A stretch of 52,214 nucleotides of DNA from Candidatus Avimonas faecium (lineage in GTDB: Bacteria > Bacillota > Clostridia > Oscillospirales > Acutalibacteraceae), in contig CAJFQI010000008.1 of assembly GCA_904419005.1 (NCBI GenBank), positions 1 through 52,214 of the forward strand, written 5' to 3'. The position numbers and the translations under genes were made by a program. Under the pieces are notes generated by a model, which saw only the letters and a program-made list of their open reading frames with translations, made no database searches and was not told the origin of the DNA. Position 1 is the first letter of the stretch; the number at the start of each line of letters is the position of its first letter. This document shows positions 187 through 16,181 of the stretch, piece after piece.

Positions 187-286
187 TCAGGGGGAGTGCC
201 TGCGGGCGGGAGGCCGGGGGGAATCCCCTTGGTCAAAGCGCTTTTTCAGCTTTTCAAGGGCCTTTTTTTCAATGCGCGATACATAG
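187..286 (-). CDS. sigK: sigK 3' fragment (C-terminal end of sporulation sigma-K), separated from its 5' part
   Basis: On the minus strand this stretch reads YVSRIEKKALEKLKKR, then a short Gly/Pro/Arg-rich end, and stops with TGA at 187-189. Sigma-K proteins end region 4.2 with SRSYVSRIEKRAL, so this is the missing second half of the DNA-binding recognition helix. The 5' part of the gene is at 15471-16106. It stops matching sigma-K exactly at the 12-bp sequence shared by the two sites. Joined at that repeat the frame is kept (TAT GTA TCG CGC ATT GAA). The product is 240 residues, about the normal length of the family. The fragment has no start of its own and should only be translated after the intervening element is excised. 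This is read directly from the bases; the excision itself is inferred. Confidence 0.9.
275..286. repeat. Left attachment-site core of the sigK intervening element
   Basis: The 12-mer CGCGATACATAG is identical to 15472-15483. On the minus strand it reads CTATGTATCGCG and encodes YVSR of sigma-K. It marks the junction between the sigK 3' fragment and the element. Confidence 0.85.
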
Positions 287-354
287 CGGCGCGGCTAATG
301 CAAGCAGCGGGGCCGCGGGCGGCCGAGAGGGAGGGGCTGCCTGCCGGGCAGGCT

Positions 355-1932
355 TTATCCGGCGGGAGGATTTTCCGGCTCCCGAAAGCGGAAGGCGATG
401 AGGAGCTCCTTATCCTCGGTCAGCTCCACCCGTTCAATCAGGCGGACCAGCAGCTCCCGGCTGGTGAAGGCCCCGTCCGCGAAGCGGCGCGCCAGCGATT
501 CGGCCGCGTCCCGGCCGGAGGCGGGGGCCTCCTCCTGCGCCAGGGCTTGCTGCCGCTGCGCCAGGGCGGCCCGTTCCTCCCGGTACCGCTCATAGAGGCG
601 GCGGAAATCCTCCTCGTCCAGCAATCCGCTGAGGCGGTCGCCGTACAGCCTTTCCAAGCGGGCGTTCAGAAGCTCGAGCCGCTTTTGCAGTTCCTGCATC
701 TGGCCCTTGACGCTCTGCCCGCCGCCTGCCGCCTGCCGGAGGGCCTCCCGGGCGGCCGGCAGCAGCGTTTGGGGGAGCAGGTACTGCCCGCAGAGCCGCC
801 GCAGGGTGCCCGCCACCGCCTCCATCACGGCCGCTTCCTTGACGGAATGGCAGGTGCAGCCCCCAGCCTTGGTGAAGCGCTGGTAGGTGCGGCAGACAAA
901 ATACAGGACGTCCTCCCCCTTCGCGTTCTTGCGGTTGACGACCGCCAGCGGGCGGCCGCATTCGTGGCAGAAGATCAGCCCCTTGAGGGGGAAATCGTAG
1001 GTCCGGCTGCGGGTATGCCGGCGGCTTTCGAGCAGCCGCTGTACCTGGTCAAAGGCTTCCCGGCTGATCAGCGGCTCATGGGTGCCGGCCACCACCACCC
1101 AGTCCTCGGGGGCCAGGCGCCGGCATTTTTTGCTTTTGTAGCTGACCTTGCGGCTCCGTCCCTGCACCATATTGCCGGCATAGGTCTCGTTGCGCAGCAT
1201 GTCGGCGATGCGTTCGCCGCTCCACAGCGAGGCGCCGGGCCTGCCGGCGGGCAGACGGGCGTATACGGCCGGGGTGGGAACGCCCTCCCCGTTGAGCCGG
1301 GCGGCGATCTGTCGGCAGCTGATCCCCTCCTGCGCCATGGCGAAGATGCGCCGCACCGTGGGGGCGGCCCCCTCGTCGATCACGATCTTGTTTTTCTCGG
1401 CCGGGTGCATCTTGTAGCCGTAGACCGGCTTGCCGCCGATGAACAGCCCCTTGCGCTGCTTGTCGTGCTTGACGCTGGCGATTTTTTTGGAGATGTCCTT
1501 GGCGTACATGTCGTTCATGATCGCGCGGAAGGGGGTGATGTCGTTGGCGGAGGAATCCACGCCGGTGTCAATGCCGTCCAGCAGGGAGACATACCGCACC
1601 CGGTGCTCGGGAAAGTAGCGTTCCATATAATGGCCGGTCAGGATATAGTCCCTGCCCAGGCGGGACAGGTCCTTGGTGACGACCAGGTTGACCTTCCCGT
1701 CCTCAATGTCCCGCAGCATCCGCCGGAACGCGGGCCGGTCGAAGTTCGTCCCGCTCCAGCCGTCGTCAATATAGACGTCAAAGACCCGCAGTCCCTGCCG
1801 CCGGACGAAATCCTCCAGCAGGGATTTCTGGTTGGTGACGCTTTCGGACGGCCCCTCGCTCTCGTCCTCCTTGGACAGCCGGATGTATAAGCCGGCGCAG
1901 TAATTCCCAGGGCTGCGTATTTCTAAGGCCAT
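355..1932 (-). CDS. Large serine recombinase, likely SpoIVCA-like integrase/excisionase of the sigK element
   Basis: This is a 525-residue large serine recombinase that should cut and rejoin the 12-bp sites flanking the element. The resolvase domain comes first (about residues 12-165), with the catalytic serine in YIRLSKED near residue 19 and the signature DLSRLGRD near residue 88. The recombinase domain follows (about 175-290, including YGYKMHPAEKNK). Next are a zinc ribbon (CHECGRPL, then FVCRTYQ and a CTCH pair), a charged coiled-coil region and a DUF4368-like tail. AGGAGG lies 7 bases before the ATG. The gene reads toward the nearby left attachment site. A 37-residue gene lies 69 bp upstream and may share its transcript. 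The family call is firm. Its role on sigK rests on position and on the rebuilt gene. Confidence 0.93.
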   Translation of the reverse strand: MALEIRSPGNYCAGLYIRLSKEDESEGPSESVTNQKSLLEDFVRRQGLRVFDVYIDDGWSGTNFDRPAFRRMLRDIEDGKVNLVVTKDLSRLGRDYILTGHYMERYFPEHRVRYVSLLDGIDTGVDSSANDITPFRAIMNDMYAKDISKKIASVKHDKQRKGLFIGGKPVYGYKMHPAEKNKIVIDEGAAPTVRRIFAMAQEGISCRQIAARLNGEGVPTPAVYARLPAGRPGASLWSGERIADMLRNETYAGNMVQGRSRKVSYKSKKCRRLAPEDWVVVAGTHEPLISREAFDQVQRLLESRRHTRSRTYDFPLKGLIFCHECGRPLAVVNRKNAKGEDVLYFVCRTYQRFTKAGGCTCHSVKEAAVMEAVAGTLRRLCGQYLLPQTLLPAAREALRQAAGGGQSVKGQMQELQKRLELLNARLERLYGDRLSGLLDEEDFRRLYERYREERAALAQRQQALAQEEAPASGRDAAESLARRFADGAFTSRELLVRLIERVELTEDKELLIAFRFREPENPPAG

Positions 1933-2001
1933 ATTCCGCCTCCTATGCCGCGGGGCCCCGGCGCTTCCCCGCCGTGCGCGCCGCGCCGGCGGCGGGCGGG
2001 C

Positions 2002-2115
2002 TCAGCGGTCATGGCCCAGCTCCCGGCGGATAAACAGGGCGAAGGATTGCAAAAGGAGCGCTTCCGCCTCCTCCTGTCCGAAGCGGCAGCTCACCCGTAA
2101 TTGGCGTTTTCCCAT
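2002..2115 (-). CDS. 37-residue protein upstream of the recombinase; TnpW-like or directionality factor candidate
   Basis: A short reading frame starts MGKRQLRVSCRFGQEE and ends FIRRELGHDR. It has a strong ribosome site, AAAGGAG, 8 bases before the ATG, and it ends 69 bp before the recombinase start. The predicted shape is a beta strand followed by an amphipathic helix (EEAEALLLQSFALFIRREL). Small proteins of this general layout, annotated TnpW, accompany serine recombinases on clostridial transposons. Excision of known skin elements needs a small recombination directionality factor besides the recombinase. This is the only very small gene next to the recombinase, so it is a candidate for that role. 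No firm homology can be claimed from the sequence alone. Confidence 0.6.
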   Translation of the reverse strand: MGKRQLRVSCRFGQEEAEALLLQSFALFIRRELGHDR

Positions 2116-2144
2116 CGTTGCGTCTCCTTTCTGTGGAATGGTAA

Positions 2145-2173
2145 AGGATATGCGGGAAAACGCCGGATTTTGC
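2145..2173 (-). promoter_or_regulatory. Sigma-E-like promoter for the 37-residue gene and recombinase
   Basis: The minus strand shows GCAAAAT, 14 bases, then CATATCCT. This resembles the sigma-E (mother cell) pattern of an ATA-type -35 element and CATA...T at -10 with about 14-bp spacing. It ends about 15 bases before the ribosome site of the 37-residue gene. A dyad TTGCTT-N7-AAGCAA (2170-2188) overlaps the -35 part. Sigma-E control is known for spoIVCA of B. subtilis. The match is partial. Confidence 0.35.
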
Positions 2174-2187
2174 TTGTCCGCAAAGCA

Positions 2188-2216
2188 AGCGCCGCCCCGT
2201 CTCGCGGGGCGGCGCT
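2188..2216 (-). terminator. GC-rich hairpin after the BREX operon
   Basis: AGCGCCGCCCC pairs with GGGGCGGCGCT around a short loop (stem at least 11 bp). On the minus strand it is followed by TTGCTTTG, a weak T-rich tract. It lies between the cysteine desulfurase and the recombinase pair and may separate the two transcripts. Confidence 0.5.
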
Positions 2217-2395
2217 CCTTGGGCGGCTTTGGGGCTTCCGCCCCCGCCGGGAGGCAGGGGAGGGAAGCAAGGGCGAAAAGAGGGAGAAAGGCCCCGGCCT
2301 GCCGGATACGGTCGGGCAGGGGCCGAAGAGGGTAATCTGTCCTCCGGCCGCGCGGCTCCCCCGTTCTGCTCAGGGGGCGGCGCGGGCCAAGCTGC

Positions 2396-2423
2396 CACCA
2401 TCCGCCGGTGCCGGCGGATGGTG
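2396..2423. repeat. Perfect 13-bp inverted repeat abutting the cysteine desulfurase stop codon
   Basis: CACCATCCGCCGG and CCGGCGGATGGTG are separated by only TG. The dyad starts at the base next to the TAG stop of the cysteine desulfurase (2424-2426). No T-run follows on the minus strand, so it is not a textbook terminator. It may stabilise the 3' end of the BREX mRNA or bind a protein. Confidence 0.6.
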
Positions 2424-3572: not shown

Positions 3573-3587
3573 GGGCCGCCCCTTCCC

Positions 3588-3791
3588 CTAGCCGAACAGG
3601 GGGCAGCCCTGGCGCTTGAATTCCCGGGCCTTCTCCTTGAGCACTTCCGGCTCGGTTTCCAGATAGCCGGCCAGGCACGCCAGGCAGAAAAACCGTTTGG
3701 CGTCCGGGTCCAGCAGCTTTTTATTCAGGCCGATCTCGTTCTTGCTCAGCCCCCGCCGGCCGCAGAGCCGGCAGATCCTTGCTCCGTTCAT
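3588..3791 (-). CDS. Small zinc-ribbon protein of the BREX operon
   Basis: This 67-residue protein has two Cys pairs, CRLCGRRG near the N-terminus and FFCLACLAGYL in the middle, spaced as in a treble-clef or zinc-ribbon fold. A Lys/Glu-rich helix follows (VLKEKAREFKRQG). The ATG overlaps the brxL stop by 4 bases (3788-3791), so translation is probably coupled. The cysteine desulfurase starts 15 bp downstream. I do not recognise a named family. From its place between BrxL and the desulfurase it could be an adaptor or DNA-binding accessory. A cysteine-based sulfur relay is a more speculative option. Confidence 0.75.
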   Translation of the reverse strand: MNGARICRLCGRRGLSKNEIGLNKKLLDPDAKRFFCLACLAGYLETEPEVLKEKAREFKRQGCPLFG

Positions 3792-5290
3792 GAAATCCCC
3801 CTCAGGCGGTAGGTCGCGATGTCCCGGCCGCCGAACTCGGCCGGGTCAATGATCCTCAGCTGCTTGCGGATAATCCCCCGCATCGTCCTTGCGGGGCGGA
3901 GGCAGTATTGGTTGAACTCCTGCCGGAACCGGGGGCCGCCGCAGGCGTCCGCCCCGGTGATATGGGGGAAAAACAGCTTGAGGTAGGCGGTGCAGAGCCG
4001 CAGGACCGCGTCGGTGTCCCGTTTGTCGGCATCCTCGGGATACTGCACCAGCTCCTCAACCACCGCGCGGTAGCGCAGCGTTTCGGACGGGGAACGCAGC
4101 AGGTGCATGATCTCGGTGAAATACTCGGTGTTCAGCGCCCAGGTGTTCAGCTTGGTCATCTTTTCGGTCAGCCGGGGGATCTTGCTGCCCTGGATAAACC
4201 CGTGGAACCGGTCGAGCAGGGCGGATTCATGAAAGGCGGGGGGAAGGGTGCGGAACATATCCGTGCCGATGTCCATATCCCTACGGTCAATGTTGCCCAG
4301 CAGGATGATCCCCGCATCCCCCTTGACGGTAGCCGGGCCGAAATGGATGACGCCGCCCTCCATATACTGCTTGAACGCGTCCTGCATCTCAAGGCGCTGG
4401 CTGCCGAAATCCACCGACTGGATTTCGTCCATCGCGATGAAGTCCTTGACCTCAATCAGCCCCGCCTGCCCCTTGGCCTTGTTGTAAAACAGGGTGGCGC
4501 GGGTGATGCCGCTGCCGCCCACAATCCATCCGTATTTGCACACCTTGCCGAAAACGTAGGATTTGCCCGTCCCCTTGGGCGCCAGCTCCACCAGGTTCAG
4601 CCGCGGCTCCACAAAGGGGAGCAGCCGGGTCAGCATGGTGTGCTTGGCCTCCCAGGCCTCGTAGGGGCCGGCGTCGCCGTCCGCGCCGTCGTACCCGTCC
4701 GGGTTGTAATCAATCGCGCCCAGCAGGATATCGATCCATTCCTCGGTGGTGAAATGCGCCCGCGCCTGCCGGAACAGGTCCAGGTCGACCCGGTAGGGGC
4801 AAAAGCTCTGGTAATCCAGCAGGGTGAATCTCCCGTTCCTTTTGCCGTCGGACGGGGGCATATAGCCCAGCCGCATCAGCCCCCAGCTTCCGGAGGCGCC
4901 GAGCAGCTCGTGCTTTACCCGGTCCCACACATAGTCCTCAATGATGGTCCGGCCGTGGGTAAAGCCGAGGTCCGCCAGCTCAAAGGTGTAGTAATTCGCC
5001 TTGGAGTTGAACTGGACCGAGATGTTCGCCAGGAATTTGCGCGTCTGGCCGCAGGTGCGCGCCTCGTCCTCCAGCTGCTGCCGTTCCTCCCGGCGGGGGA
5101 TGACGGCGGCGACGTAGTCGCTCAGCTGGGCGGGGTCGGCGATCCGGCCGTCCGGCCCGGCCTTGCGCCGGACGATCCAGTCGCGCAGGAACGCCGGGAT
5201 GGCGGCGGAACGGAAATTTGCCATCACGGCGGAATCCTTGTATACGGTGGTGGCGGGGAAAAACTCCCGCAGCTTTTCGGTATTGTACAT
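3788..5290 (-). CDS. brxL: BrxL-like AAA+ ATPase of the BREX system, short form without Lon protease domain
   Basis: This 500-residue protein matches the AAA+ part of BrxL, the BREX protein related to Lon. It has Walker A APKGTGKS at residues 237-244, Walker B DFIAMDE at 283-289 and sensor-like ILLGNID. The region before the ATPase domain is conserved with BrxL (FELADLGFTHGRTIIEDYVWD). Full BrxL proteins are close to 680 residues and carry a C-terminal Lon-like protease fold. This one ends soon after the ATPase domain with a helical tail. A family of shorter BrxL-like proteins of about 450-500 residues exists, so this need not be a truncation. It lies 12 bp after pglZ. The likely role is DNA-dependent ATP use in phage exclusion. 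Family assignment is firm; its biochemical role in type 4 BREX is not established here. Confidence 0.88.
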   Translation of the reverse strand: MYNTEKLREFFPATTVYKDSAVMANFRSAAIPAFLRDWIVRRKAGPDGRIADPAQLSDYVAAVIPRREERQQLEDEARTCGQTRKFLANISVQFNSKANYYTFELADLGFTHGRTIIEDYVWDRVKHELLGASGSWGLMRLGYMPPSDGKRNGRFTLLDYQSFCPYRVDLDLFRQARAHFTTEEWIDILLGAIDYNPDGYDGADGDAGPYEAWEAKHTMLTRLLPFVEPRLNLVELAPKGTGKSYVFGKVCKYGWIVGGSGITRATLFYNKAKGQAGLIEVKDFIAMDEIQSVDFGSQRLEMQDAFKQYMEGGVIHFGPATVKGDAGIILLGNIDRRDMDIGTDMFRTLPPAFHESALLDRFHGFIQGSKIPRLTEKMTKLNTWALNTEYFTEIMHLLRSPSETLRYRAVVEELVQYPEDADKRDTDAVLRLCTAYLKLFFPHITGADACGGPRFRQEFNQYCLRPARTMRGIIRKQLRIIDPAEFGGRDIATYRLRGIS

Positions 5291-5302
5291 CTCCGCTCCC
5301 CT

Positions 5303-7414
5303 TTATATGTCGCTGTCCATGACGTCAATCATCTGTTCCCGCCGGGGTTCGGCCGCCCGGCCCGCCGGCGCCTTGGAATCCGCCGCGCGCAGGACGACGA
5401 CGGGCACAAGCAGCTCCTCCAGCGTAGCCCCGCCGTGCATCTCGTTCTTTTTGCCGCCGGGATATCTCAGGCGGTGGTAGCCGCGCACGGCCCAAAATTC
5501 TCCTTTGATTGTGCTTGCCATCTTCTCGGGCACCGCCTGGTGTGGGTCGGCCACAGCGTAGCGCCAGTCCACAGCCTTCCCGCACGCGGGAAGGGTTTCG
5601 CACAGGCCGTTTTGGTAGGCGAGCACCGCCAGCCTGGAGGAGCCGTGGTCCGCCGTTACGGCTACGCGCCGGTACCGCTGGAGGCCCTGCAGGACCGCCG
5701 GCAGGATCCGTTCGGGAAAAGCATCAAGGCAGGCGGCGAAATCCTCGGCAAAATCGGTCCGCTCATACCGCTGCGCGCCGTCGTGCGCCACGTTGTCCAC
5801 CACCATCACCTTGGGAAGGAATCCCCCGGTATGCCAATAATCCGGGGGATTGCTGCTCGACTCGGTCGGAAGCGACACATAGCCGAGCGCCGTGTATTCG
5901 GCTGTCAGGCCCGCCTGGCCCGCCAGCCCGAGCAGGAGGGGCAGGTATTCCACCCCCAGCCCGTCCACGACCAGCAGCCCCGTCTGCGCGTCGTCGAACG
6001 GCCTCAGGAGCAGCTCCTGAGGCGATGTGCGGGGCGGTACGCCGTCTTTGGGGCTGTATGCGTAAGCCAGGTCCGCAAATTCCCGGGTGATCCGGTTCTG
6101 GGCTTTCAGCCGCCGGTATGCGCGGAAATAGCGGGTGTATTCGCCGTCGCCCAGGGAATCGGCGGGGGATAGGTATTCCGCGATCAGGGGGAAGGCCTCT
6201 GCGATATGCGCCGGCACGCCGGCCGTTAGGTCGGCGGCGGGCAGGCGGCGGAGGATTTCCGCGTGTTCCAGCGGGGTGCCGGCGTTCATCCAGGGCAGGA
6301 AGTCGGCGTCCGCCAGCCCCCGTTCCCGCCCTTGGCTAAGGAAATAGGCGATCAGCGGCCGGACGGCGGAGGACATGGCGGAGACGGCGTCCCGGCGTTC
6401 GCGGAGGTAGGAACCGGCGCCGGCAGATCCGACCGCGTCCAGCGCGGCGTCTGCGATATACTGACGCAGGAAATTGTCCGGGCCGGTGTCCGGCCGGCGG
6501 AGCACGGCCGACAGGTAGGAGCTGCGGGGGAGCCGGCGGCGCAGCATCCAGGCAAACGCCTGCCACTGGGCCGGGTCGGCCGCCCGCCCCAGCCGAGCCG
6601 GCGCGTCCTTGAGCGGGTCCGTGCCCTCAAAGCCGAACGCTTGGGCCACCGCCGCCAAGGCGGGGAGGGCGTACTCCTGCGTTTTGTCCAGGATATATTG
6701 CAGCGCGGCTTCGGACAGGCCCGCGTCGTCCACCCCGTACTGGGCCCGCATCAAGCTGCGCAGGTCGGCCAGCTGCCGCACCGCGTCGTTCAGCCCCGCC
6801 AGCGGCGCCCGGTAGTCTTGCAGCAGGACGGTTTTCCCCTCGGTATGGGGCTGCAGGTCGGACAGCACCCGCAGCAGGCCGGTAAAGCCGGCCAAGCCGT
6901 CCCGGCACCAGGCCGCGGGCAGGAGGGTGACCGGCGGGATCGCCCAGGCCTCGCAGTCCCCGTCAAAGAGCAGCAGCTTCCGGGCGCCGGCGTATTTCGG
7001 GTTTTTGAGCAGCCCGGCCGTCATCTCCTCCTGCCAGGAGGAGGAAAGCAGGATGCAGAAATCGCCGCCGCTTTGGTCCAGAAGCCGGGAGAGCTCCCGC
7101 GCCGCCTGCCGGACGCCCTGGGCATTCCATAGGGAGAGATAGGCGTCCAGCCCGCGGACCAAGGCCTTGCGGCCCGCCTGCTCGATTTTTTCCCGCAGGC
7201 GTCCGAAAAGCTCGGCAGGCACCGGCAGCCGGCATTCCCGGCCGCCCAGCAGCTCCTCTACGCAGTCGGCCACCGACACGGCCGCACAGCATGGCTCGTG
7301 CAGGGAGAGGATCTGGGTCCCGACGGCGGGGTTTGGGTAGAACAGGAGCCGTCCGGCCCTTGCGGAGCAGAAGCCGGCGTATTCATTGAGCGTTGTCTTC
7401 TTCATGGTGGTCAT
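5303..7414 (-). CDS. pglZ: PglZ, alkaline-phosphatase-fold protein of type 4 BREX
   Basis: This 703-residue protein has the PglZ domain in its last third. The metal-binding aspartate is in LLVVDGLGVEYLP (near residue 484), followed by YVSLPTESSSNPPDYW and the second metal motif VTADHGSSR (near 589). PglZ is present in every BREX type and belongs to the alkaline phosphatase superfamily. The N-terminal two thirds are mostly helical and not recognised. The chosen ATG (7414, MTTMKKTTLNEYAG) has GGGAG 7 bases upstream and lies 32 bases inside the end of brxC, suggesting coupling. An ATG at 7405 has no ribosome site. Next to brxC and brxL without a PglX methylase gene, this is the type 4 form. Confidence 0.92.
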   Translation of the reverse strand: MTTMKKTTLNEYAGFCSARAGRLLFYPNPAVGTQILSLHEPCCAAVSVADCVEELLGGRECRLPVPAELFGRLREKIEQAGRKALVRGLDAYLSLWNAQGVRQAARELSRLLDQSGGDFCILLSSSWQEEMTAGLLKNPKYAGARKLLLFDGDCEAWAIPPVTLLPAAWCRDGLAGFTGLLRVLSDLQPHTEGKTVLLQDYRAPLAGLNDAVRQLADLRSLMRAQYGVDDAGLSEAALQYILDKTQEYALPALAAVAQAFGFEGTDPLKDAPARLGRAADPAQWQAFAWMLRRRLPRSSYLSAVLRRPDTGPDNFLRQYIADAALDAVGSAGAGSYLRERRDAVSAMSSAVRPLIAYFLSQGRERGLADADFLPWMNAGTPLEHAEILRRLPAADLTAGVPAHIAEAFPLIAEYLSPADSLGDGEYTRYFRAYRRLKAQNRITREFADLAYAYSPKDGVPPRTSPQELLLRPFDDAQTGLLVVDGLGVEYLPLLLGLAGQAGLTAEYTALGYVSLPTESSSNPPDYWHTGGFLPKVMVVDNVAHDGAQRYERTDFAEDFAACLDAFPERILPAVLQGLQRYRRVAVTADHGSSRLAVLAYQNGLCETLPACGKAVDWRYAVADPHQAVPEKMASTIKGEFWAVRGYHRLRYPGGKKNEMHGGATLEELLVPVVVLRAADSKAPAGRAAEPRREQMIDVMDSDI

Positions 7415-10400
7415 AAATACTCTCCCAAAAGGCCAGCCCGATGTCGGGGTTTTCCGCCGCAAAACGGAGGAGTGACCGCTTCAGCCGGTCGCTGGGCGTG
7501 TTTTTCAGCTCGCTGACAATCCGGGGGGCGATAGCCGCCTGGTACTGCCCCTCAATATACGGCGTGATGTCGGCGTCAAGGGGCCAGCGGTTCGGGCAGC
7601 CGCCGTATTCCCGGTTCATATATTCCAGCAGGGAGGCCAGGCCGATATCAAAACGCCGGTACCGGCGGGGGACCACCCGCTGCAAAAACGCCTGCTGGCA
7701 GCGGGGGATCGCGCGGGCCTCCTGCCCGGACAGCCGGGAGAGGGTGTCCTCCAGCTTTTCGGAGGCGTAGGCCCGCGGGCTTTGAAGGACCCGCAGGATC
7801 TCCTGGGCGTCCTCCGGCCGCTCAAACAGCGTCCAGGCGGGCAGATGGCTGCCTGCAGACCAGTCGTCGGGCGAAGCGCTGCCGGAAAAGGCCTTCCACT
7901 CCTCGGAAAGCCGGCCGATCGCCTCAGTTTTCAGGCATTCGTCAATACGCCGCTGGAAGTCGGAGAAAAAGGCCGGCTCCCGATCGAAAAAGCCGCTGTC
8001 GGCTTGGTAGTACAGCTCCCTCAGGCGGTCGTCCGGGAGAGCCTGGCTTTTGGCCAGCCGCTCCCGGATAATGGCCAGCTGGGCGCCGGCGTCCGCCGAA
8101 AAGAAGACCTCCTTGATCCGCTCCGGGCTGCGGGACAGCGCCGCGCTGACCTGCGGGGCGATCCCGGCCTCCGCCGGCTCGCCGACCGTCCGCAGGAACT
8201 CCGCAAGCTCCGGATAGCAGAGAAGCAGCGTTTCCCTCGGCAGCCGGTTTTTCTCCGCTGCGGCCTGGTACAGGTGGGCCAGGGCGTCCGGGTACGGGAG
8301 GAAGCCTTCAATGTGGGCCAGCTTCTGCACCTGCGCGATGACCTCGTATTCAGCGGCAACCTCGGCGGCGGCGCTGTGGATATCGGTCTTTTTCCATAGC
8401 CACCCAGCCGCCTCGCTTGCCTTGGCCAAGATGCTGCCGCAGTATTCCCCCGCGCGGTCGCCTACGCGCTGCGCCAGCCGGCCCAGGGCGGGCTCCTCCC
8501 GGTCGATGTACTGCCGGAAGGCCGACTGGAAGGCGCCCGCCTGGACGTAAGGGGAAAGCCGGTCTGCCATCGCCGGCTCCTGCAAAAGCATCCGGCCGAT
8601 TTCCCGGGCGCAGTTCGTCCGTCCCGCTACGTCGCTTTTGGAGCTGATCAGGAACGCATGGCAGAGCAGGTCGACGAGCCGGCCGATCGGCTCCCCGTCC
8701 GGCTCCGCCTGCAGGGCGTCGTATTCGGGAAGCACCCAAAGCGGCACGCGGCAGGAGACCGTTTCAATCCGCTGGGCCACCTTGTTCAGCGCGTCTTCAA
8801 CCGTGCCGTTCGGATCTCCCCGGAGCCCAAAAATCCGGGGAACCAGCGTGACAAACCGGCGTTCCTCCGGCGAAATTTCGCAGATCCGCTGCTCGTTTTT
8901 GAGCTGGCAGCTTCCGTCGTCCTTCACGGCGTCGCTGATGATAGATGCCAGCGAGTCGGTATCAAGCGGCCAGGTGCCCTGGCCGTTGGTCCGCTGGTAC
9001 CCCTGCGACAGCAGGAAGCGCAGCGCAAAGCCGAGCGCGAAGGCCGTCAGCGCGTAGGGCAGCATCCCGTAGGGAGGCCGCTTGAGCGCCCGGTACTCCC
9101 GGCACAGGGAAAACGGCCGCTGCGCCTGGAGGGCGCTGGCGACGCGTTCCTGCAAAAACGCGCGCAGCTGGGCCAGCGGATGCTCCGGATGGCCGTCAAA
9201 CCAGGCGCCGTCCGCGGCAACGCCCTGCTTGCGCAGAAAGGCGACCAGCTGTGCGCCGCTGCCCTTAGTGACCGTTTCAAACAGGAGCCCCGCCTTGGCC
9301 CACGGGACGAAGCCGGAGGTCTGGGTGGCGATGACAAGGTCGGCGGTACCCAGCTGTTCCAGGCACAGCGGCAGGCTCCGGCTCACATAGTTGGACAGGT
9401 AGGCGTCAAAGTTATCCCAGCTTAAGGAGGTGCGGGTACAGGCCTCTTTGCCGTTGGCGCAGAACGCCAGCAGGGAGGCTTGCTTAGACTGGATCCGGCC
9501 GATCCAGGACTGGACCATTTTTTCCAGCGTATGGTCGTACTGGTTTTTGGCCAGGTCGTCGTTGGCCAGCATCCGCTGGGCGTAGGCATGCACATAGTCC
9601 TTCCACGCATTGGCGTTTTCCGAGCAGAAGGTGATATCCGGAAAGCTGACGCAGATCAGGCGGTGGTCGTAGTAATGCTTCAGGAAATTCTGAATTCTCT
9701 CCGGGATGGCCAGCTGTTCCTCCCGGTTTTTGGCCGGCACAAAGCAGACCAGCACCTTGCCGTCCTCCTGCGAGAAGCGGCGGCGTTCGGCGGCGGACAG
9801 CAGGCCGGCCTTCAAATGGGCCACGTCCGCGGCGAGGGCGGCATAGCGCAGGGCGGGGCCGGGAAGGCTTTTCTTCAGCTTCTCAAGCAGCTTTTCGGAA
9901 AGCAGCTCGTGAAACTGGTTTTCATATTCCGCTACCCGCTTTTCCAGCTCGGCGCCGCCGACGGCAGAACGGAACAGCTCAATATTTTCCCCGATGAGGG
10001 AGAAGCACTGCCGGTCGGCGAGACTGTGGACGATGCCGCGCACCCCCACGATGGCGCCGTCTCCCTTGAACGCCAGCTCGACGTTCGCTATGGTGGGCCG
10101 CAGCAGCTCGTGCCCTTCCGGGTACAGCCGGTCCAGCAGGCAGAAGAGCAGGACGACCTTCAGCACGCGGATTTCCTCGTCGTCCTCGTCCCGGTTGGGG
10201 AATTCCCGCCTCCGGATCCGCTGGAAGGCGGCCCGGATCTCCTTGACCTCGGCTTTTGTCCCCTGCTTCTCCTGCTCAAGGAAATAGCTCCAAAGGTAAT
10301 CCGCGGTCAGGAATTGCTTGCCGGGGACATCAGGGCCCCCTTCCCGCAGGAATTTTTGAAAGGTTTTTTCGTTGGCGCCCCCCTTCAGGTATTCAAACAG

Positions 10401-11573
10401 GCTGCGCTGGTCCGATCCGACGGAGGTGCAGAGGTATTTGAGCAGGAAGGCGGCCATCGGATGGAGGGGCAGGATCGCCTGCAGAGATTCCCGGCTGACC
10501 TCGTCGCCCCGGAGATGGATTCCTGCAAAATCGCTGACAGCGCTCCAGAGCTGGGCCTTTTCCGCCCGCCATTCCTTTTCAAGCGCCTGGTTTACATGGA
10601 TGGCGTTTCCCACCAGGCGGAAGGCGGTGTCGTCCGGCATCTGCAGGTCCTGGAAATCGAAACGCTCGTTGGATTTTAAGGGGTTGGCCGATCCCTCCGC
10701 CCAGTAGGCGTCAATACTCATATGGGTGACGGGGACGAAGTAAAACAGCCCCAGCTCGGAATACTCCGCCACCTGCTCAAAGGTTTTCAGCTCCGCCTTG
10801 TTGGCGTCAATGAAGCTGGAAAATTCGTCAAAGACATAGACGATTTTTTCAAGCCCGTTCTCCGCCGCCGCCTGCTGCATCCAGCTTTTGAGGTTGACCG
10901 CGGATACCTCCAGGTAGATCGAACGGGCGTACAGCACCTGCTGTATGTCTGCCAGCAGCCCTTCGGGGATATCTCTCTGCGTCAGCGCCGCTTCCAGCTG
11001 CTCCATGGTGGCGATGCCCGGATGCAGCGCCGGGAGGCGGCTTTGGATTTCGTCCCGCGTTTTGAAGAAGTTGTCCCCTTCCTCCCGGATGCGCTCAAGC
11101 ATTGTGCTCAGCTGCGTGCGGGGCGGGACCTTTTTCCCGGCGTCCTGCAAGGCGTCGACGATGCGGCGTTCCAGGCGCACCAGGAATTCCTTGTGCGGGT
11201 CAAGGCCGTCGGCGTTGTAGTCGTAGACGAACAGGACGCCCCTTTGGCGCAGCGCGAGAATGGTGTCCAGCAGCTCAGGCGGGAGGACTTTGCGGTGCTT
11301 GGAAAACCAGGACCGCACCCGGTCTTCCGTATCAAGAAACAGCATCCGGATGGTCAGTACGGCAAAGCTTTTGCCGGTGCCGTAGTTGCCCATGGTCCAT
11401 ACCGAGCGCTGGGCGTGGCAGAGGGCGTTTAAAAAGGCGCGCAGGAGCTCGACAAACTTAGGGTGGGGGAGGAAGGACATCCAGGCATCCGGGTTCTTCT
11501 CAAGCACCTCGCGCGTCATGGTGGGCGAATAATCCTCGGGGATCGACAGGTAATCAGCGTAGCGTCGGCTCAT
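7383..11573 (-). CDS. brxC: BrxC/PglY-type large ATPase of type 4 BREX
   Basis: This is a 1396-residue P-loop ATPase. Walker A is MGNYGTGKSF (residues 61-70) and Walker B is IVYVFDE (about 244-250). Size, early Walker A and order match BrxC/PglY, the largest BREX protein and a core member of all types. The rest is long, helical and without other clear motifs. The start at 11573 was chosen because ATG follows AGGAGAG and overlaps the brxP stop by 4 bases (ATGA at 11570-11573). The open frame extends 44 codons upstream, but those lie inside brxP. BrxC is thought to use ATP to assemble or move the BREX complex on DNA. The exact action is unknown. Confidence 0.92.
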   Translation of the reverse strand: MSRRYADYLSIPEDYSPTMTREVLEKNPDAWMSFLPHPKFVELLRAFLNALCHAQRSVWTMGNYGTGKSFAVLTIRMLFLDTEDRVRSWFSKHRKVLPPELLDTILALRQRGVLFVYDYNADGLDPHKEFLVRLERRIVDALQDAGKKVPPRTQLSTMLERIREEGDNFFKTRDEIQSRLPALHPGIATMEQLEAALTQRDIPEGLLADIQQVLYARSIYLEVSAVNLKSWMQQAAAENGLEKIVYVFDEFSSFIDANKAELKTFEQVAEYSELGLFYFVPVTHMSIDAYWAEGSANPLKSNERFDFQDLQMPDDTAFRLVGNAIHVNQALEKEWRAEKAQLWSAVSDFAGIHLRGDEVSRESLQAILPLHPMAAFLLKYLCTSVGSDQRSLFEYLKGGANEKTFQKFLREGGPDVPGKQFLTADYLWSYFLEQEKQGTKAEVKEIRAAFQRIRRREFPNRDEDDEEIRVLKVVLLFCLLDRLYPEGHELLRPTIANVELAFKGDGAIVGVRGIVHSLADRQCFSLIGENIELFRSAVGGAELEKRVAEYENQFHELLSEKLLEKLKKSLPGPALRYAALAADVAHLKAGLLSAAERRRFSQEDGKVLVCFVPAKNREEQLAIPERIQNFLKHYYDHRLICVSFPDITFCSENANAWKDYVHAYAQRMLANDDLAKNQYDHTLEKMVQSWIGRIQSKQASLLAFCANGKEACTRTSLSWDNFDAYLSNYVSRSLPLCLEQLGTADLVIATQTSGFVPWAKAGLLFETVTKGSGAQLVAFLRKQGVAADGAWFDGHPEHPLAQLRAFLQERVASALQAQRPFSLCREYRALKRPPYGMLPYALTAFALGFALRFLLSQGYQRTNGQGTWPLDTDSLASIISDAVKDDGSCQLKNEQRICEISPEERRFVTLVPRIFGLRGDPNGTVEDALNKVAQRIETVSCRVPLWVLPEYDALQAEPDGEPIGRLVDLLCHAFLISSKSDVAGRTNCAREIGRMLLQEPAMADRLSPYVQAGAFQSAFRQYIDREEPALGRLAQRVGDRAGEYCGSILAKASEAAGWLWKKTDIHSAAAEVAAEYEVIAQVQKLAHIEGFLPYPDALAHLYQAAAEKNRLPRETLLLCYPELAEFLRTVGEPAEAGIAPQVSAALSRSPERIKEVFFSADAGAQLAIIRERLAKSQALPDDRLRELYYQADSGFFDREPAFFSDFQRRIDECLKTEAIGRLSEEWKAFSGSASPDDWSAGSHLPAWTLFERPEDAQEILRVLQSPRAYASEKLEDTLSRLSGQEARAIPRCQQAFLQRVVPRRYRRFDIGLASLLEYMNREYGGCPNRWPLDADITPYIEGQYQAAIAPRIVSELKNTPSDRLKRSLLRFAAENPDIGLAFWESIYDHHEEDNAQ

Positions 11574-13861
11574 AGCGTCTCTCCTAACATCAATGCGGCG
11601 ATATCGTCCAGCGTATGCTTGTCCGGGAAAACAGCCACCTCGTCCAGGCCGGCGGCAAAGGTGCATAGGAGGTAGCCGGGATACCGGGATTCCAGCCCCC
11701 GGCACTGCTGCTTAAAGGTTTCCGGCTCTATGCCGAAGGCCACAAGGGGGGACAGGAACGCGGAGGAAAAATCCGCCGTCATCAGCTCTCGCACCGTGAA
11801 GGCGCGCCGGTCCGCCTTGCCGGCAATGAGGTACAGCCCGTACAGGACCGCCAGCGGGGCAGCCTCCTTGCTCCGTCGCTCAATCCAAAGGAGCTTTTTG
11901 CCCTGCATGCCGTAGGCGATCACTCCTCTTTCCCCTCCGAGCGGGGATTTGGTGATCGTATCCTTGAGAGAGGCGATGCCGCAGTCGACCGCCGTGGGCT
12001 TGAGGTCAGGGAAGCTTTGGCTGAACAGGTCGGGAAGCGCCGCGGCGCTGTACGGCGTGCCGCAGGCCGTGGCGGTGACCAGCCAGCGCACCACCGGCGC
12101 GTTATTGGCCAGCGCCATCCAGATGCAGTCCCACCCGATCGGCGCATCGCAGCCAAAGGCGTCAAATACATTCAGCAGCGCCGTTGGGCGTTTGTCCGCG
12201 TCAATCAGCATGGCCTGCGGGAACCAGGCAGCGGCCGAGGGGACCATTTTGATGCCCAAGGGGTGTTCGTCCGTCCAGGGGAAGAAACCGGCCCGCATCT
12301 TGACCAGCTTTTCGACAAAGACCTCGCGCAGGCCGAAGTTAAAGTAACAGTTGATCCCATTGAGAAGCTTCTGTGGATTTTCGGTCTCTCGCATCGATTT
12401 GAACCTCCAGCAGCCGTAGTCGACGGCATGGCATTTCAGGCATCCGGTGCATTGGGCCCCGTTAATCCGGATCCCCGGCCCGGTGCGGCGGATGGCGCCG
12501 GAGGGGCATTCCGCCTCGCAGCTGTAGCAGCCCACGCAGGCCAGCGATTTTTTCAGCACCGTCCGGATGCGGGGGGCCATCGCCGCCTTTTCCGGCAGGG
12601 ACCGGAAGCGGAACGTCACGGTATTGCCGTCGGCAAAAAAGTAGTCCGCCTTTTTCAGGGTCTTGACCCATTCGTGGAACCGCGTCTCCCGCAGGCCCGC
12701 CGCCCTCCAGGTCGCGTTCAGCCCGTTGTGCTCCTCAACGGGGCTGGTAATGCTGTCCCTCAGCGTCATCCCGCTGCTGCGGGCCTGCCAGTTGGCGTTG
12801 CCCAGGAAGGCGCCGCGTTCCTTTTCCGAGCGGAAAACCTTGCGGCTGGTCTGTAGGATAACGTCCCTGTACGGCCGCACAAGCCCGGGGTAAATATGGT
12901 CGACATACCACTGGTATTTGTCCGAGGATTCCGGGCACATGACGCAGCCGACCCGGCTCAGCCCGAAGAGGTAGGCGCGGTTAACCGGCAGGCGGTTGGC
13001 GAAAATGTAAAGCCAGATCTCGTGCGCGCCCCATTCAAGCAGCGGCATCTGGTTGATCTGCGACGCGTTTTTTACTCCGAAGCTGCTGTCCCGGTAGGCC
13101 GAGCGGGCGTAGCCTTCCTCGCTGCGCACCCCGACGAAGCCCATGGCCAGGATAGCGGCCTTTTTCTGCCTTTTTTTCAGTAGGACGATGGCCGGCGCGC
13201 TTTTATACACCGAGCAGCACCAGCGGATCGCCCGCGACGGGGGGCCGAAAACCCGCCAGTTTTCCAGCGCGGGGGTGCCGGCGGACGCGGTGAGGAACTC
13301 CCGGTCCGGGTACCGCTGCGGGATCTCCCGCCATAGGGCGACGGTGTCCGGCAGCTCCATATCGGTGTCGCTGAATACCACTGGCACGCTGCGGGGAAGG
13401 ACACGGTGGCAGAGGTCCAGCAGCACGGCGGAATCCTTGCCTCCGGAGAATGCAATATAAGCGGTGTCGCACCGGGCGATATCCTGATCGTACAGCTCCT
13501 TGATCCGGCGCTTGGTATCCGCGACAAGCAGGCTCATGACCGCGGCGTTTTTCCTCACCATCCCCGCAACGTCGACTGGCTGGAGGGGGAGGACGCCTTC
13601 AAAAAAGAACTCGGGGGACAGCTGTTGGCCGTATTTCGTGCCCTTGAGCTGCGCGACCTTTACCCCCTGGTAGAAATACTGGCTTTTCAGCGCCCACAGG
13701 AGGGGGCGCGTCTCCTCTTTATCGTAGGAAAACCGGGCGTCAAAGCCGATGAGGGTGAGCTCGGGCGCGAACACGGGACGTATCTCGTTGGCGACGAATT
13801 TGCTGGCCTGCGTGGTCAGCCGGTAGCCGCGCGTCTCCGGGTCCCACTGATAATCGTACAT
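11570..13861 (-). CDS. brxP: BrxP: PAPS-reductase-family PP-loop protein with ferredoxin domain
   Basis: This 763-residue protein defines type 4 BREX, where it stands in place of the PglX methylase. The PP-loop is SGGKDS (residues 139-144). A CC pair (215-216) and GCVMCP (305-310) resemble the four-cysteine cluster of DndC/SspD-type PAPS-reductase-like proteins. A ferredoxin-like module follows, with CVGCYSCEAECP (442-453) and CTGCLKC (471-477), enough for one or two 4Fe-4S clusters. The last 270 residues are a separate domain, perhaps DUF4007-like. Relatives adenylate a substrate and insert or reduce sulfur, so DNA phosphorothioation is a reasonable guess. The cysteine desulfurase in the same operon supports this. 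It starts 3 bp after the HARE-HTH gene and overlaps brxC by 4 bases. Family firm, chemistry inferred. Confidence 0.92.
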   Translation of the reverse strand: MYDYQWDPETRGYRLTTQASKFVANEIRPVFAPELTLIGFDARFSYDKEETRPLLWALKSQYFYQGVKVAQLKGTKYGQQLSPEFFFEGVLPLQPVDVAGMVRKNAAVMSLLVADTKRRIKELYDQDIARCDTAYIAFSGGKDSAVLLDLCHRVLPRSVPVVFSDTDMELPDTVALWREIPQRYPDREFLTASAGTPALENWRVFGPPSRAIRWCCSVYKSAPAIVLLKKRQKKAAILAMGFVGVRSEEGYARSAYRDSSFGVKNASQINQMPLLEWGAHEIWLYIFANRLPVNRAYLFGLSRVGCVMCPESSDKYQWYVDHIYPGLVRPYRDVILQTSRKVFRSEKERGAFLGNANWQARSSGMTLRDSITSPVEEHNGLNATWRAAGLRETRFHEWVKTLKKADYFFADGNTVTFRFRSLPEKAAMAPRIRTVLKKSLACVGCYSCEAECPSGAIRRTGPGIRINGAQCTGCLKCHAVDYGCWRFKSMRETENPQKLLNGINCYFNFGLREVFVEKLVKMRAGFFPWTDEHPLGIKMVPSAAAWFPQAMLIDADKRPTALLNVFDAFGCDAPIGWDCIWMALANNAPVVRWLVTATACGTPYSAAALPDLFSQSFPDLKPTAVDCGIASLKDTITKSPLGGERGVIAYGMQGKKLLWIERRSKEAAPLAVLYGLYLIAGKADRRAFTVRELMTADFSSAFLSPLVAFGIEPETFKQQCRGLESRYPGYLLCTFAAGLDEVAVFPDKHTLDDIAALMLGETL

Positions 13862-13864
13862 GCT

Positions 13865-15016
13865 TCAGTCCTGTTCTTCGCCGAATATCCCGGCTTTCCA
13901 CGCCCGCTTGGGCTCGCCTGGATAATGGCGTTCCACCAGCCGGCGGAAATTCTTCTTTGAGGACAGGCCGCACTCGCTGCGCAGGTTGACGCCCAGGCGC
14001 AGGCTCAGGGCGGTGTGCAGGTTGTCCTCGGACACCGGCAGGCCGAGTGCTTCCAAGGCTTGGACCGCAGCGAAAACGTGCTCGTCAAAATCCGCAGGGA
14101 GCCCCAGGGCGTCCTCGCTCTGGAAGAAAACGACGCCATCGCTTTCTGAGCAGAGAATTCCCGGCAGGTAGGTCCGTACAAGCGCCTTCAGCAGCGGCGC
14201 GTTGATCAAAGGCAGGCGCCGGAGCAGCGCCGCCTGGGTCGGCATGCCGGAGGATTCCGCTATTGCGTCCCGCAGCGCTCCGCCTGCGAAGGCGGACAGC
14301 ACCGGGGCGAGAGGGGTCTCCTTCCGGAGCATCAGACGGTACTGGTACAAAAAGGTCACGGCGCGCAGATCCGCCGTCTCCTCCCCCTGCTCCAGCAGAC
14401 AGGCCAGGAATGTTTCCCGGCCGCCGGGGCCCAGGTCCACGTCCTCCAGCTCCGGGGCGGCAAAGGCAAGCAGGGCGTCCGCCTGGAAAAAGCCGTATTC
14501 CCGGATCCAGCGGGCGGCCGTTTCCCGCAGGCGCGCCTGATTTTCCGGCTTTGCCAGCCGGTCGGGCAGCAGCCAGACGCCGTCGGCCCGGGGGATCATC
14601 CGCCGCCTGAGCGCCTCCTGCAGCGCGCCGTCCACCGTGACCCCTGTCTTGGAGGAAAGCAGCCTCAGCGCGGTGGAGGAAAAATAGAAGCCGTTTGGGT
14701 AATCGGCGCGGATCCGGTTAAGAAGCTGGTCCAGCAGAGGCTCTTCCTTATCCCGGACGGACTCCGGAAGGTTGAGGCGATAGCGCTTGGCCCACGACCT
14801 CTTCCCCGGCTCCTGCTCGTCCTCCAGGCACACGGCGGCAGGCCGGTCTCCCTGGGAATGGAGGGAGCGCGTCAACGTGATATAGACGGTGTGCCGCGGG
14901 TCCTTTGCGTGGAACCGGCACAGCCCCTTTTCGGCAATGCGCTCGTAGATTTCCTTAACCGTCATGCCGTGCTTTTCCGCAGAGAGCACGGCGACGATCG
15001 CCTCTTTTATATTCAC
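13865..15016 (-). CDS. HARE-HTH domain protein, first gene of the BREX operon
   Basis: This protein is about 383 residues. The N-terminal 65 residues (NIKEAIVAVLSAEKHGMTVKEI.., then KDPRHTVYITLTRSL) form a HARE-HTH winged helix. That fold is shared by bacterial restriction endonucleases, the RNA polymerase delta subunit and eukaryotic ASXL, and is proposed to link to DNA modification state. The remaining 300 residues are helical and unrecognised, with no nuclease motif I can identify. The GTG at 15016 is chosen because the domain starts there and AAAGG lies upstream. The frame stays open to a GTG at 15100, without a good ribosome site. brxP begins 3 bp after its stop. It could be a sensor or specificity subunit telling modified from unmodified DNA, or the operon regulator. 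Confidence 0.8.
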   Translation of the reverse strand: MNIKEAIVAVLSAEKHGMTVKEIYERIAEKGLCRFHAKDPRHTVYITLTRSLHSQGDRPAAVCLEDEQEPGKRSWAKRYRLNLPESVRDKEEPLLDQLLNRIRADYPNGFYFSSTALRLLSSKTGVTVDGALQEALRRRMIPRADGVWLLPDRLAKPENQARLRETAARWIREYGFFQADALLAFAAPELEDVDLGPGGRETFLACLLEQGEETADLRAVTFLYQYRLMLRKETPLAPVLSAFAGGALRDAIAESSGMPTQAALLRRLPLINAPLLKALVRTYLPGILCSESDGVVFFQSEDALGLPADFDEHVFAAVQALEALGLPVSEDNLHTALSLRLGVNLRSECGLSSKKNFRRLVERHYPGEPKRAWKAGIFGEEQD

Positions 15017-15130
15017 GGGTTCTCGCCGCCTTTCCAAAGTAAAGGATCGGTGGGAAGCGGGGCTGTGCGGCCAGAGGCCGATTTTGTGAAAAATAAACAC
15101 GAAAATGGGCTTTTCTCTTTAGATTTGGCA

Positions 15131-15159
15131 ATTATACCACGAAAATTGTCGAAAGGCAA
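15131..15159 (-). promoter_or_regulatory. Sigma-A promoter of the BREX operon
   Basis: The minus strand shows TTGCCT, 17 bases, TATAAT. It lies about 115 bp before the GTG of the HARE-HTH gene and is the only strong promoter seen upstream of the BREX genes. It implies vegetative expression independent of sigK. Confidence 0.8.
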
Positions 15160-16106
15160 TCTTTTCCTCTGCCTTCCGGCTCTCCCTCTGCGGCTGATCC
15201 TGCGGCGGGGCGGCGGAAGGCGGGGATTTCGGCTCGCAAGGAAGCCAGACGCGCTGGGCTTCCCATTTGGCCCGCCGGCCTGTCCGGCCCTGCCATCCTC
15301 AAGCGCGGGCAGGGGAGGCGGCAGGCTTGTCCGCCGGCCGCTTTTCCTTTGCCCGGCGGCAGGTGGGAGGATAGGGCATCCAGCGGCGGACGGGTTCGCG
15401 GACGGCGGGGCGGCTTGTTCGGTGCGGCGGCCCGCTCCGGCCTGGAGGGCCGCCGCTTACGGTAAGCGCGCCGCGATACATAGGAGCGGGAGATGTTCAG
15501 CCTGGCGGCGACCTCCCGCTGGGTGAGAGGGTCGCCCGTCAGCCCGTACCGCAGCTCGACGATTTCCCGTTCCCGGTCGTCGAGGATTTCCCGGATGTAG
15601 CGGTACAGCTTTTCGGCGTTGATCTTCCGGTCAATGTCTTCCACAATGGTGTCGTCCTGTGCGATTACGTCGCTGAGGGTGAGGGGATGCCCGTCCTTAT
15701 CGGTGTCGATCGGTTCGGAAAAGGAAACATCCTGTGCCGTTTTCTTCCCCGCCCGGAAGTGCATCAGGATCTCGTTTTCAATGCAGCGGGAGGCGTAGGT
15801 CGCCAGGCGGGTGCCCTTGGTGTAGTCAAAGGTATTGACCGCCTTGATCAGCCCGATGGTGCCGATTGAGATCAGGTCGTCCTGATCCCGGACCGAGCTG
15901 TAATACTTTTTGATGATGTGGGCGACCAGCCGCAGGTTATGCTCAATCAGATGGTTGCGGGCGTCCAGATCGCCGTGCTGCCGGTAGGCCTCCAGGCAGC
16001 GGCGTTCCTCCGCGGCGGGGAGGGGGCGGGGGAAGGAGCCGGAATTGACCACATGAAGCGCCATATAAAAGATATGGGAAAGGGAATTGAGCAGTTCAAG
16101 CAGCAT
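15132..16106 (-). CDS. sigK: sigK 5' part: pro-sigma-K interrupted at region 4.2, reading into the element
   Basis: Residues 1-212 are a full match in layout to mother-cell sigma-K. A hydrophobic pro-sequence (LLELLNSLSHIFYMALHV) comes before SGSFPRPL. Region 2 follows (NLRLVAHIIKKY, DLISIGTIGLIKAV, TYASRCIENEILMH), then region 4 (DDREREIVELRYGL, TQREVAARLNISRSYVSR). After the last R (15471-15473) similarity ends. The frame runs 112 more codons of Pro/Arg-rich sequence to 15132, which is element DNA. The missing end is at 187-286. The ATG at 16106 follows GGAGGT at 8-base spacing. Unlike C. difficile sigma-K, this one keeps a pro-sequence, so processing by a SpoIVFB-like protease is expected as well as excision. 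The unexcised product should be inactive because the DNA recognition helix is cut. Confidence 0.93.
   Translation of the reverse strand: MLLELLNSLSHIFYMALHVVNSGSFPRPLPAAEERRCLEAYRQHGDLDARNHLIEHNLRLVAHIIKKYYSSVRDQDDLISIGTIGLIKAVNTFDYTKGTRLATYASRCIENEILMHFRAGKKTAQDVSFSEPIDTDKDGHPLTLSDVIAQDDTIVEDIDRKINAEKLYRYIREILDDREREIVELRYGLTGDPLTQREVAARLNISRSYVSRRAYRKRRPSRPERAAAPNKPPRRPRTRPPLDALSSHLPPGKGKAAGGQACRLPCPRLRMAGPDRPAGQMGSPARLASLRAEIPAFRRPAAGSAAEGEPEGRGKDCLSTIFVV
15454..15468. repeat. Dyad beside the right attachment site
   Basis: CGCTTAC-G-GTAAGCG is a perfect 7-bp inverted repeat 3 bp inside the element from the 12-bp core. It may be a recombinase arm site. Confidence 0.45.
15472..15483. repeat. 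Right attachment-site core of the sigK intervening element
   Basis: This is the second copy of CGCGATACATAG, identical to 275-286 and in the same orientation. It falls at the codons for YVSR, where the sigK 5' part stops matching the family. Confidence 0.85.
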
Positions 16107-16146: not shown

Positions 16147-16181
16147 ATCCTATGCAAAACGGCGCTTCCGCGTGCCTGTCC
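16147..16181 (-). promoter_or_regulatory. Possible sigma-E/SpoIIID-controlled region of sigK
   Basis: On the minus strand CATAGGAT (16154-16147) resembles a sigma-E -10 element. GGACAGGC (16181-16174) just upstream resembles the SpoIIID box (GGACAAG core). In B. subtilis sigK is transcribed by sigma-E with SpoIIID. No good -35 is visible, so this is weak. Confidence 0.3.

Follow-up and report, generated by a model that had tools for sequence, protein, structure and literature searches.

The window analysed here is the whole 52,214-nt stretch at the start of contig C8 (CAJFQI010000008.1) of Candidatus Avimonas faecium, whose draft genome comprises 2.57 Mb in 107 contigs and is 95% complete. 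In this window, the sigma factor gene sigK is split by a 15,197-bp element that carries BREX type 4 (BREX-4) genes and its own recombinase, and excision in the mother cell is predicted to rebuild the gene. We regard this account as very probable, and the element is best read as a predicted skin-type, developmentally excised defence island. The first-pass annotation of this DNA had described a skin-like sigK-intervening element, which is now supported by the split gene, the in-frame join, an empty site in a congener, the recombinase and the relatives. The BREX-4 cargo, the recombination module with its small open reading frame (ORF), a promoter-like motif shared with sigK, and the family to which the element belongs are additions to that description.

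The sigK halves and the ends of the element lie at the following positions:

15480–16106, minus strand: sigK 5′ part, codons 1–209, ending SRSY (frame and profile match)
187–282, minus strand: sigK 3′ part, GT of codon 210 through stop codon, VSRIEKKALEKL... (frame)
15472–15483, plus strand: attachment-site core at the sigK 5′ part, putative crossover GT (minus strand) at 15478–15479 (12-mer and relatives)
275–286, plus strand: attachment-site core at the sigK 3′ part, putative crossover GT (minus strand) at 281–282 (12-mer and relatives)
281–15479, no strand assigned: sigK-intervening element, 15,197 bp from GT to GT (attachment-site comparison)

The 5′ part begins with an ATG at 16106 and reads SRSYVSR through to 15471, and the 3′ part runs on the same minus strand from 286 down to the stop codon at 187–189. 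The 12-mer CGCGATACATAG is present at 275–286 and 15472–15483 on one strand, with no further copy in the window. Two 12-mer matches occurred in none of 100 shuffles, even when one mismatch was tolerated. Joining the halves gave an open 240-residue SigK ending SRSYVSRIEKKALEKLKKRFDQGDSPRPPARRHSP, so that the gene is interrupted after codon 209. The direct repeat at both ends of a 15.2-kb block, the split of sigK across it and the unbroken 240-residue frame had all been claimed in the first-pass annotation and were confirmed, with the block now measured at 15,197 bp. The 5′ part, itself free of any extra interruption, scored 274 bits against the NCBIfam SigK model PRK05803 (cut-off 252); being truncated, it reached 264 bits with the equivalog TIGR02846, below the cut-off of 298.65.

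An uninterrupted sigK in a related genome, a comparison suggested by the same annotation, is present in the congener G001 with 96% identity across residues 1–240. The two genes differ at 80 synonymous and 4 non-synonymous positions in 229 aligned codons (209 of the 5′ part and 20 of the 3′ part), and the last 11 codons diverge more (4 synonymous, 6 non-synonymous). A second intact sigK, which the annotation had named as the finding that would speak against it, was not found in the host genome, although a missed copy is possible because the genome is 95% complete. The other strong match in the genome (C35:28512) has 46% identity to SigK and adjoins another sigma-factor frame. The window has these features of a sigK-intervening element: halves in the same orientation, an in-frame join at a short direct repeat, an own serine recombinase and an intact homologue in relatives.

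The putative crossover was placed at the dinucleotide GT, within the Val-210 codon, because in relatives (e.g., L027) the flanking bases at one end of the element differ from those at the other and GT is constant. The remainder of the 12-mer outside GT is a partly shared flank. Two of the scans that placed GT demanded Val at the junction; a looser scan did not, and its listed sigK fragments still carry Val. The junction SRSY/VSR(I/L)EK was found in 20/20 loci with both halves placed (the window and 19 relatives), a set chosen partly by such junction motifs. Large serine integrases are expected to have long dyads in attP. Joining the element ends gave a predicted attP in which 21/28 arm bases of the window stand in dyad symmetry, and across the window and 13 relatives the dyads covered 18–24/28 bases. 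These results bear on an assembly artefact, in which the contig would fuse unrelated pieces. The genome is a 107-contig draft, with the window placed at the end of one contig, but family attachment arms occur on both ends of the element and a sigK fragment adjoins the recombinase in 74/80 relatives from other assemblies. We consider such a fusion extremely improbable.

The recombination module consists of two genes and a nearby stem:

355–1932, minus strand: large serine recombinase, 525 aa, with Resolvase, Recombinase and zinc-ribbon domains (Pfam)
2002–2115, minus strand: 37-aa ORF preceding the recombinase gene, a candidate for the recombination directionality factor (RDF)
2189–2215, minus strand: 11-bp perfect GC stem just 5′ of the small-ORF motif described below, terminator-like by eye, where the terminator-scan tool called none

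The recombinase gene is full-length and adjoins the sigK 3′ fragment. Its three domains each exceed the curated cut-offs, and TnpX is nearest to its N-terminal part among solved structures. A short ORF lies directly upstream of the recombinase in 90/95 loci (85 of the 90 distinct sigK-type ones), and the five loci lacking it have only 1–104 bp of upstream sequence each. No such ORF was found upstream of 16 more distant serine recombinases; because the ORF model was refined on the same loci, this 0/16 is the meaningful contrast. The identities at codon positions 1/2/3 were 0.51/0.55/0.35 among 51 distinct copies, which shows constraint at the level of the protein. The gene for B. subtilis Skr (64 aa) lies immediately upstream of spoIVCA, overlapping it, and is required for sigK reconstitution (PMC6957869). 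Since that RDF is encoded just upstream of its recombinase, the 37-aa protein is a candidate RDF, as its position, conservation and size suggest. A protein of 37–50 aa, one recombinase and a defined site would make a compact recombination module.

Two promoter-like motifs of equal total length precede the module and sigK:

2149–2179, minus strand: GGACAAGCAA-N17-CATA upstream of the 37-aa ORF, putatively of the sigma-E/SpoIIID type
16151–16181, minus strand: similar motif upstream of sigK, GGACAGGCA...CATA

The pattern GGACANGCAA-N12-22-CATA was found upstream of the small ORF in 26/79 distinct regions exactly and in 35/79 with up to one mismatch, and in matching regions the spacing from GGACANGCAA to CATA was always 16 or 17 bp. 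The mean of 30 shuffles was 0 for exact and 0.13 for one-mismatch matches, and the reverse strand gave 0 and 2. The sigK version was present at up to two mismatches in all nine distinct sigK upstream regions of the same genus, the window's included. The motif common to the small ORF and sigK is likely mother-cell-specific, as judged from the sequence. CATA-type −10 boxes belong to mother-cell sigma factors in C. difficile (PMC3789822). The C. difficile SpoIIID site is given as KRTAACARK (PMC5025042), and SpoIIID of B. subtilis activates spoIVCA and spoIVCB (PMC517825).

The cargo genes, in order from the sigK 5′ side, and a possible promoter are as follows:

15131–15159, minus strand: sigma-70-like promoter match TTGCCT-17-TATAAT upstream of the cargo operon, weak (1 found vs. 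0.5 expected)
13865–15100, minus strand: first cargo gene, protein of 411 aa with an N-terminal HARE-HTH domain (domain match)
11570–13861, minus strand: BrxP, PAPS reductase domain with ferredoxin-like cysteines (profile match)
7383–11705, minus strand: BrxC/PglY, frame as listed, homology from residue 49, start likely near 11573 (profile match)
5303–7462, minus strand: PglZ of BREX-4 type, frame as listed, start codon uncertain (profile match)
3788–5290, minus strand: BrxL (profile match)
3588–3791, minus strand: 67-aa protein with two CxxC motifs, possibly the small zinc-finger protein of BREX-4 (PMC12839542)
2424–3572, minus strand: cysteine desulfurase, DndA/SspA-like (profile match)

The 37-aa ORF and the recombinase follow the desulfurase. 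The PADLOC profiles gave E-values of 3.9e-209 for BrxP, 2.3e-256 for BrxC, 2e-77 for PglZ and 9.3e-178 for BrxL, so that brxP, brxC, pglZ and brxL, the BREX type 4 core, occur together. These genes are near full length against the profiles; the PglZ match begins at position 54/700, lacking the first 53 positions, and PglZ scored 138.5 bits with NCBIfam BREX_PglZ_4, 1.5 under the cut-off of 140. The closest BrxP among the matches listed in a search of 5.8 billion proteins had 60% identity. The 67-aa CxxC protein had no family match in the profile scans. When the cargo proteins were compared with Pfam, PADLOC and NCBIfam, no match to a phage structural gene was found, and the element was not classed as a prophage-like skin because no phage gene was recognised. 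PMC12839542 describes the BREX type 4 set and proposes the cysteine desulfurase as a sixth component, and PMC11931770 places brxPCZL among the three known phosphorothioate-making families. The cargo is predicted to act in anti-phage defence.

The element of the window belongs to a widespread family that docks in sigK. When named genome contigs were scanned for the recombinase, at least 431 relatives were found, and the following counts refer to the 80 best. Besides the 74 with a sigK fragment beside the recombinase stop, two (L053 and L090) carry, at another place on the locus, a sigK 5′ part that ends at the site, and the sequence of L037 stops 108 bp after the recombinase gene. In 63/80, no more than 300 bp separate the recombinase stop from the start of the sigK 3′ fragment. 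In 10/80 it is the sigK 5′ part, not the 3′ part, that ends within this distance, and the recombinase of these loci is therefore placed at the opposite end of the element. By alignment, L035 is an 11th inverted case, its sigK alignment ending 94 bp away. The loci with the recombinase at the sigK 5′ end are L028, L035, L064, L069, L072, L082, L085, L088, L089, L098 and L103; the GT core was unchanged in the four examined.

In the family of the host, a recombinase match at E ≤ 1e-90 was found in 29/398 sampled genomes, 14 of them more than 45% identical, the window's included. One locus of the host's family (L109, genome G222) matches Caproicibacter fermentans EA1 (L063), a species placed in Acutalibacteraceae by the NCBI taxonomy, over the 1.7 kb compared. 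Like that strain, the cultured commensal Butyricicoccus pullicaecorum ET57 has a family member (L040). A family member also occurs in a record named Blautia wexlerae MSK.20.46 (L097), and the elements therefore appear to extend beyond Oscillospiraceae-like hosts. Ten loci with the recombinase were seen on viral-collection contigs, with a sigK 3′ fragment in L163 and L164 and a mid-sigK fragment in L165. Tandem arrays of about 3–6 large serine recombinase genes or fragments were observed in L161, L162, L163 and L169 (viral-collection) and in L044; the last recombinase is of the sigK type in L161–L163 and L044, and a fragment in L169 has 90% identity to the window's recombinase over 120 residues.

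The cargo was compared among 19 complete relatives, defined by both sigK halves on the locus, with sizes of 3.8–10.2 kb; six had one end placed by alignment only. Defence-type genes were assigned in 11/19. They comprise SIR2-HerA (L048; 2e-135, 8e-234), two Pycsar cyclases (L026; 4e-95, 8e-40), KwaB with an OLD/AriA-like ATPase (L078; 5e-78 for KwaB), Ppl (L070; 1e-119), a PtuA-like ATPase (L097; 9e-28), a ThsA-like SIR2 protein with SoFic (L031; 9e-21, 1.5e-42) and CARF6 (L041; 1e-117). The candidate family PDC-S01 occurs in L041, L070 and L069. A Fic cluster groups L026, L027, L031, L040, L048 and L095; SoFic matches were obtained for six scanned members, and L031 was checked by name. L069 is counted through the candidate family alone, and L027, L040 and L095 through the Fic cluster alone. 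The cargo scan covered 84 of 98 ORFs, 14 having been removed by judgement (antisense, overlapping the small ORF, or near-duplicates), and L086, L088 and L102 were scanned in pooled lists only. The control scan used 84 flanking ORFs drawn randomly from 166. The best control match among the 25 families listed was 1.8e-18 vs. 4e-44 to 8e-234 for the named element families, the weaker PtuA-like and ThsA-like ones apart; cargo and flanking control come from the same loci, without phylogenetic correction. An enrichment of defence genes in the cargo relative to the flanks was set aside. One pooled cargo ORF inside a sigK element matches collagen repeats and BclA_C, a spore-surface protein type.

BREX-4 was not found in other sigK elements when loci L026–L135 were searched by tblastn with the BREX proteins of the window. 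The only matches besides the window's own were cysteine desulfurases in L035, L071, L097 and L105 (29–48% identical). BrxP relatives at E ≤ 1e-60 were present in 8/398 sampled genomes of the host's family, the window's included, and the other seven were 31–41% identical. None of those seven genomes has a sigK-type recombinase, G226 having only a 38% identical one. A literature search that covered mostly titles and the beginnings of abstracts, with subscription papers and preprints outside it, gave no account of defence genes carried by skin or sigK elements, so that such absence is unproven.

In some hosts, sigK appears to be in three pieces (6 of the 10 genomes searched, a non-random set in which six were picked for a short-looking sigK alignment). 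In G404 (L172, C19), G405 (L173 and L174, C11) and G406 (L175, C61), the first two pieces are on one contig and the codon-210 split ends the second. The extra split lies near codon 67 in G405 and G406, or near codon 111 in G404, at IEN/EIL, the classical skin site of B. subtilis. A different serine recombinase, 22–23% identical, adjoins the middle piece. In G407–G409, the order of the pieces is not established because the first two are on separate contigs. The short third piece was found on the loci of G404, G405, G407 and G408 and was not seen on those of G406 and G409. In the codon-67 interruption of L175 (G406:C61, 589–9069), the genes resemble, by eye, those of a sugar ABC transporter, a LacI-type regulator and two glycosidases/phosphorylases and not defence genes.

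In our view it is somewhat more probable than not that a whole class of immune islands, erased during development, uses sigK for docking. One recombinase–microprotein module under a sigK-type mother-cell promoter would carry interchangeable BREX-4, SIR2-HerA, Pycsar, Kiwa, Ppl or Fic genes, which would be kept in the forespore and cut from the mother cell, and some hosts would assemble sigma-K from three pieces through two recombinases.

In a survey of 12 genomes of the genus, sigK is split at the codon-210 site in the host (G000), G002 and G011 and unsplit there in G001, G008, G009 and G010. G004 and G005 are unsplit as judged outside a run of N, and no sigK match at the cut-off was found in G003, G006 and G007. 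In G002 and G011, codon 210 is occupied by an element with other genes (loci L021 and L020), near-identical in both congeners, in which Y-family polymerase-like genes and, by eye, transposase-like genes were noticed. Its sequenced ends have 99.6% identity over 4,489 bp, and the adjoining sigK has only 86% over 654 bp, which indicates a recent transfer.

This patchy presence, the mobility shown by near-identical element ends in two species and the TnpX-like recombinase would also fit an ordinary integrative defence island that targets sigK, is excised independently of sporulation and rebuilds the gene by chance in few cells. The promoter-like motif common to sigK and the small ORF–recombinase pair, and the preserved frame and protein sequence of the split sigK, suggest instead that the host needs the rebuilt gene. 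An ordinary integrative island is thus unlikely in our judgement, and programmed excision from the mother cell is preferred.

Several observations weigh against programmed excision of a defence island. The contig ends only 186 bp past the sigK stop. No sigK fragment was found near the recombinase in 3 of the 80 relatives (L033, L055 and L101). A close recombinase was not found in the assemblies of G002 and G011, and their elements are therefore known only in part. At one mismatch, 44/79 small-ORF upstream regions lack the motif, and among sigK upstream regions at up to two mismatches 12/28 have it and 16/28 do not. The relaxed GGACA...CATA motif, at one mismatch, has two more matches of equal length in the window, at 26880–26910 and 46385–46415. 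Its putative assignment to sigma-E/SpoIIID is by resemblance: GGACA(A/G) is similar to the SpoIIID consensus of B. subtilis, for which a literature search gave no source. The AlphaFold model of the small ORF (one helix, pLDDT 77, pTM 0.39) is of moderate confidence and uninformative on function. No defence assignment was made in 8/19 complete relatives (L052, L084, L085, L086, L088, L102, L103 and L104). Other cargo kinds in the pooled Pfam results include tyrosine recombinases (9/84 ORFs), a chemotaxis receptor, TspO, S-layer, a citrate transporter and collagen-repeat/BclA-type proteins. Finally, canonical spo0A was not found in the host assembly.

The missing spo0A raises the question of a dead end, with sigK broken for good in a host that forms no spores. 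Excision was not seen, and a Spo0A-like paralogue (G000:C18:30097–30806, L144) has a frame change between its receiver and output domains. However, the stretch that follows spo0A in a congener has its match in the host 320 bp short of the end of contig C22, and because the neighbourhood falls at this contig end the absence is likely an assembly gap, which weakens the inference of lost sporulation. The gene for SpoIIID is present at 32205–32435, about 16 kb from sigK (109.8 bits, slightly below the cut-off of 111.5), and two adjacent sigma-factor genes in the genome are likely sigE and sigG. The recombinase is full-length, and synonymous differences predominate in the 229 sigK codons, though these possibly predate the insertion. 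A permanently broken sigK is therefore quite improbable.

Under the preferred account of programmed excision, growth would be the phase in which the cargo is transcribed from a promoter of its own, when BREX-4 would protect the cell by phage defence linked to DNA phosphorothioation and the interrupted sigK would cost the growing cell nothing. During sporulation, sigma-E (with SpoIIID) may activate the sigK 5′ part and, through the matching promoter-like motif, also the 37-aa ORF and the recombinase. With the 37-aa protein as RDF, strand exchange by the recombinase would take place at GT, within the Tyr-Val-Ser codons, and the island would leave as a circle carrying attP. The complete sigK could then be transcribed, and the forespore would retain and transmit the island.

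Why spore-formers retain disposable DNA in sigK is an old question, and the skins that the cited papers describe are prophages or prophage-like. C. difficile skin excision is credited with timing sigma-K (PMC5025042). The predicted immune system of the window and those of its relatives in the same socket offer an alternative and testable reason, namely a harmless landing place guarded by selection on sigK. The result would be a difference in immunity between germline and soma, testable in cultured bacteria with related elements.

The core genes of the cargo are those of BREX type 4 (brxPCZL), accompanied by the desulfurase that PMC12839542 proposes as a further component, and the copy in the window differs by its location inside a sporulation gene, within an element of predicted programmed excision. 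The B. subtilis skin (spoIVCA, skr) likewise splits sigK and encodes a large serine recombinase, immediately preceded by a small RDF gene (PMC6957869); it is under sigma-E/SpoIIID control, and its excision rebuilds sigK (PMC6957869 and PMC517825). That skin, prophage-like and 48 kb long, occupies another site in sigK (the IEN/EIL region). In the window, sigK is split at codon 210, the recombinase gene adjoins the 3′ fragment, and the cargo is BREX-4 without a recognised phage gene. According to PMC5025042, the C. difficile skinCd (CD1231, CD1234) is a prophage-like sigK-intervening element with a large serine recombinase, a small RDF and sigma-E/SpoIIID timing, in which the RDF alone is mother-cell-specific and the recombinase is constitutive. 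In contrast, the small ORF and the recombinase of the window look like a single transcription unit. In B. cereus ATCC 10987, the gene-intervening gin element of gerE has no phage genes and is excised at sporulation by a large serine recombinase and a helper protein (PMC5595907). It differs in target gene and recombinases, and the available part of that paper reports no defence cargo.

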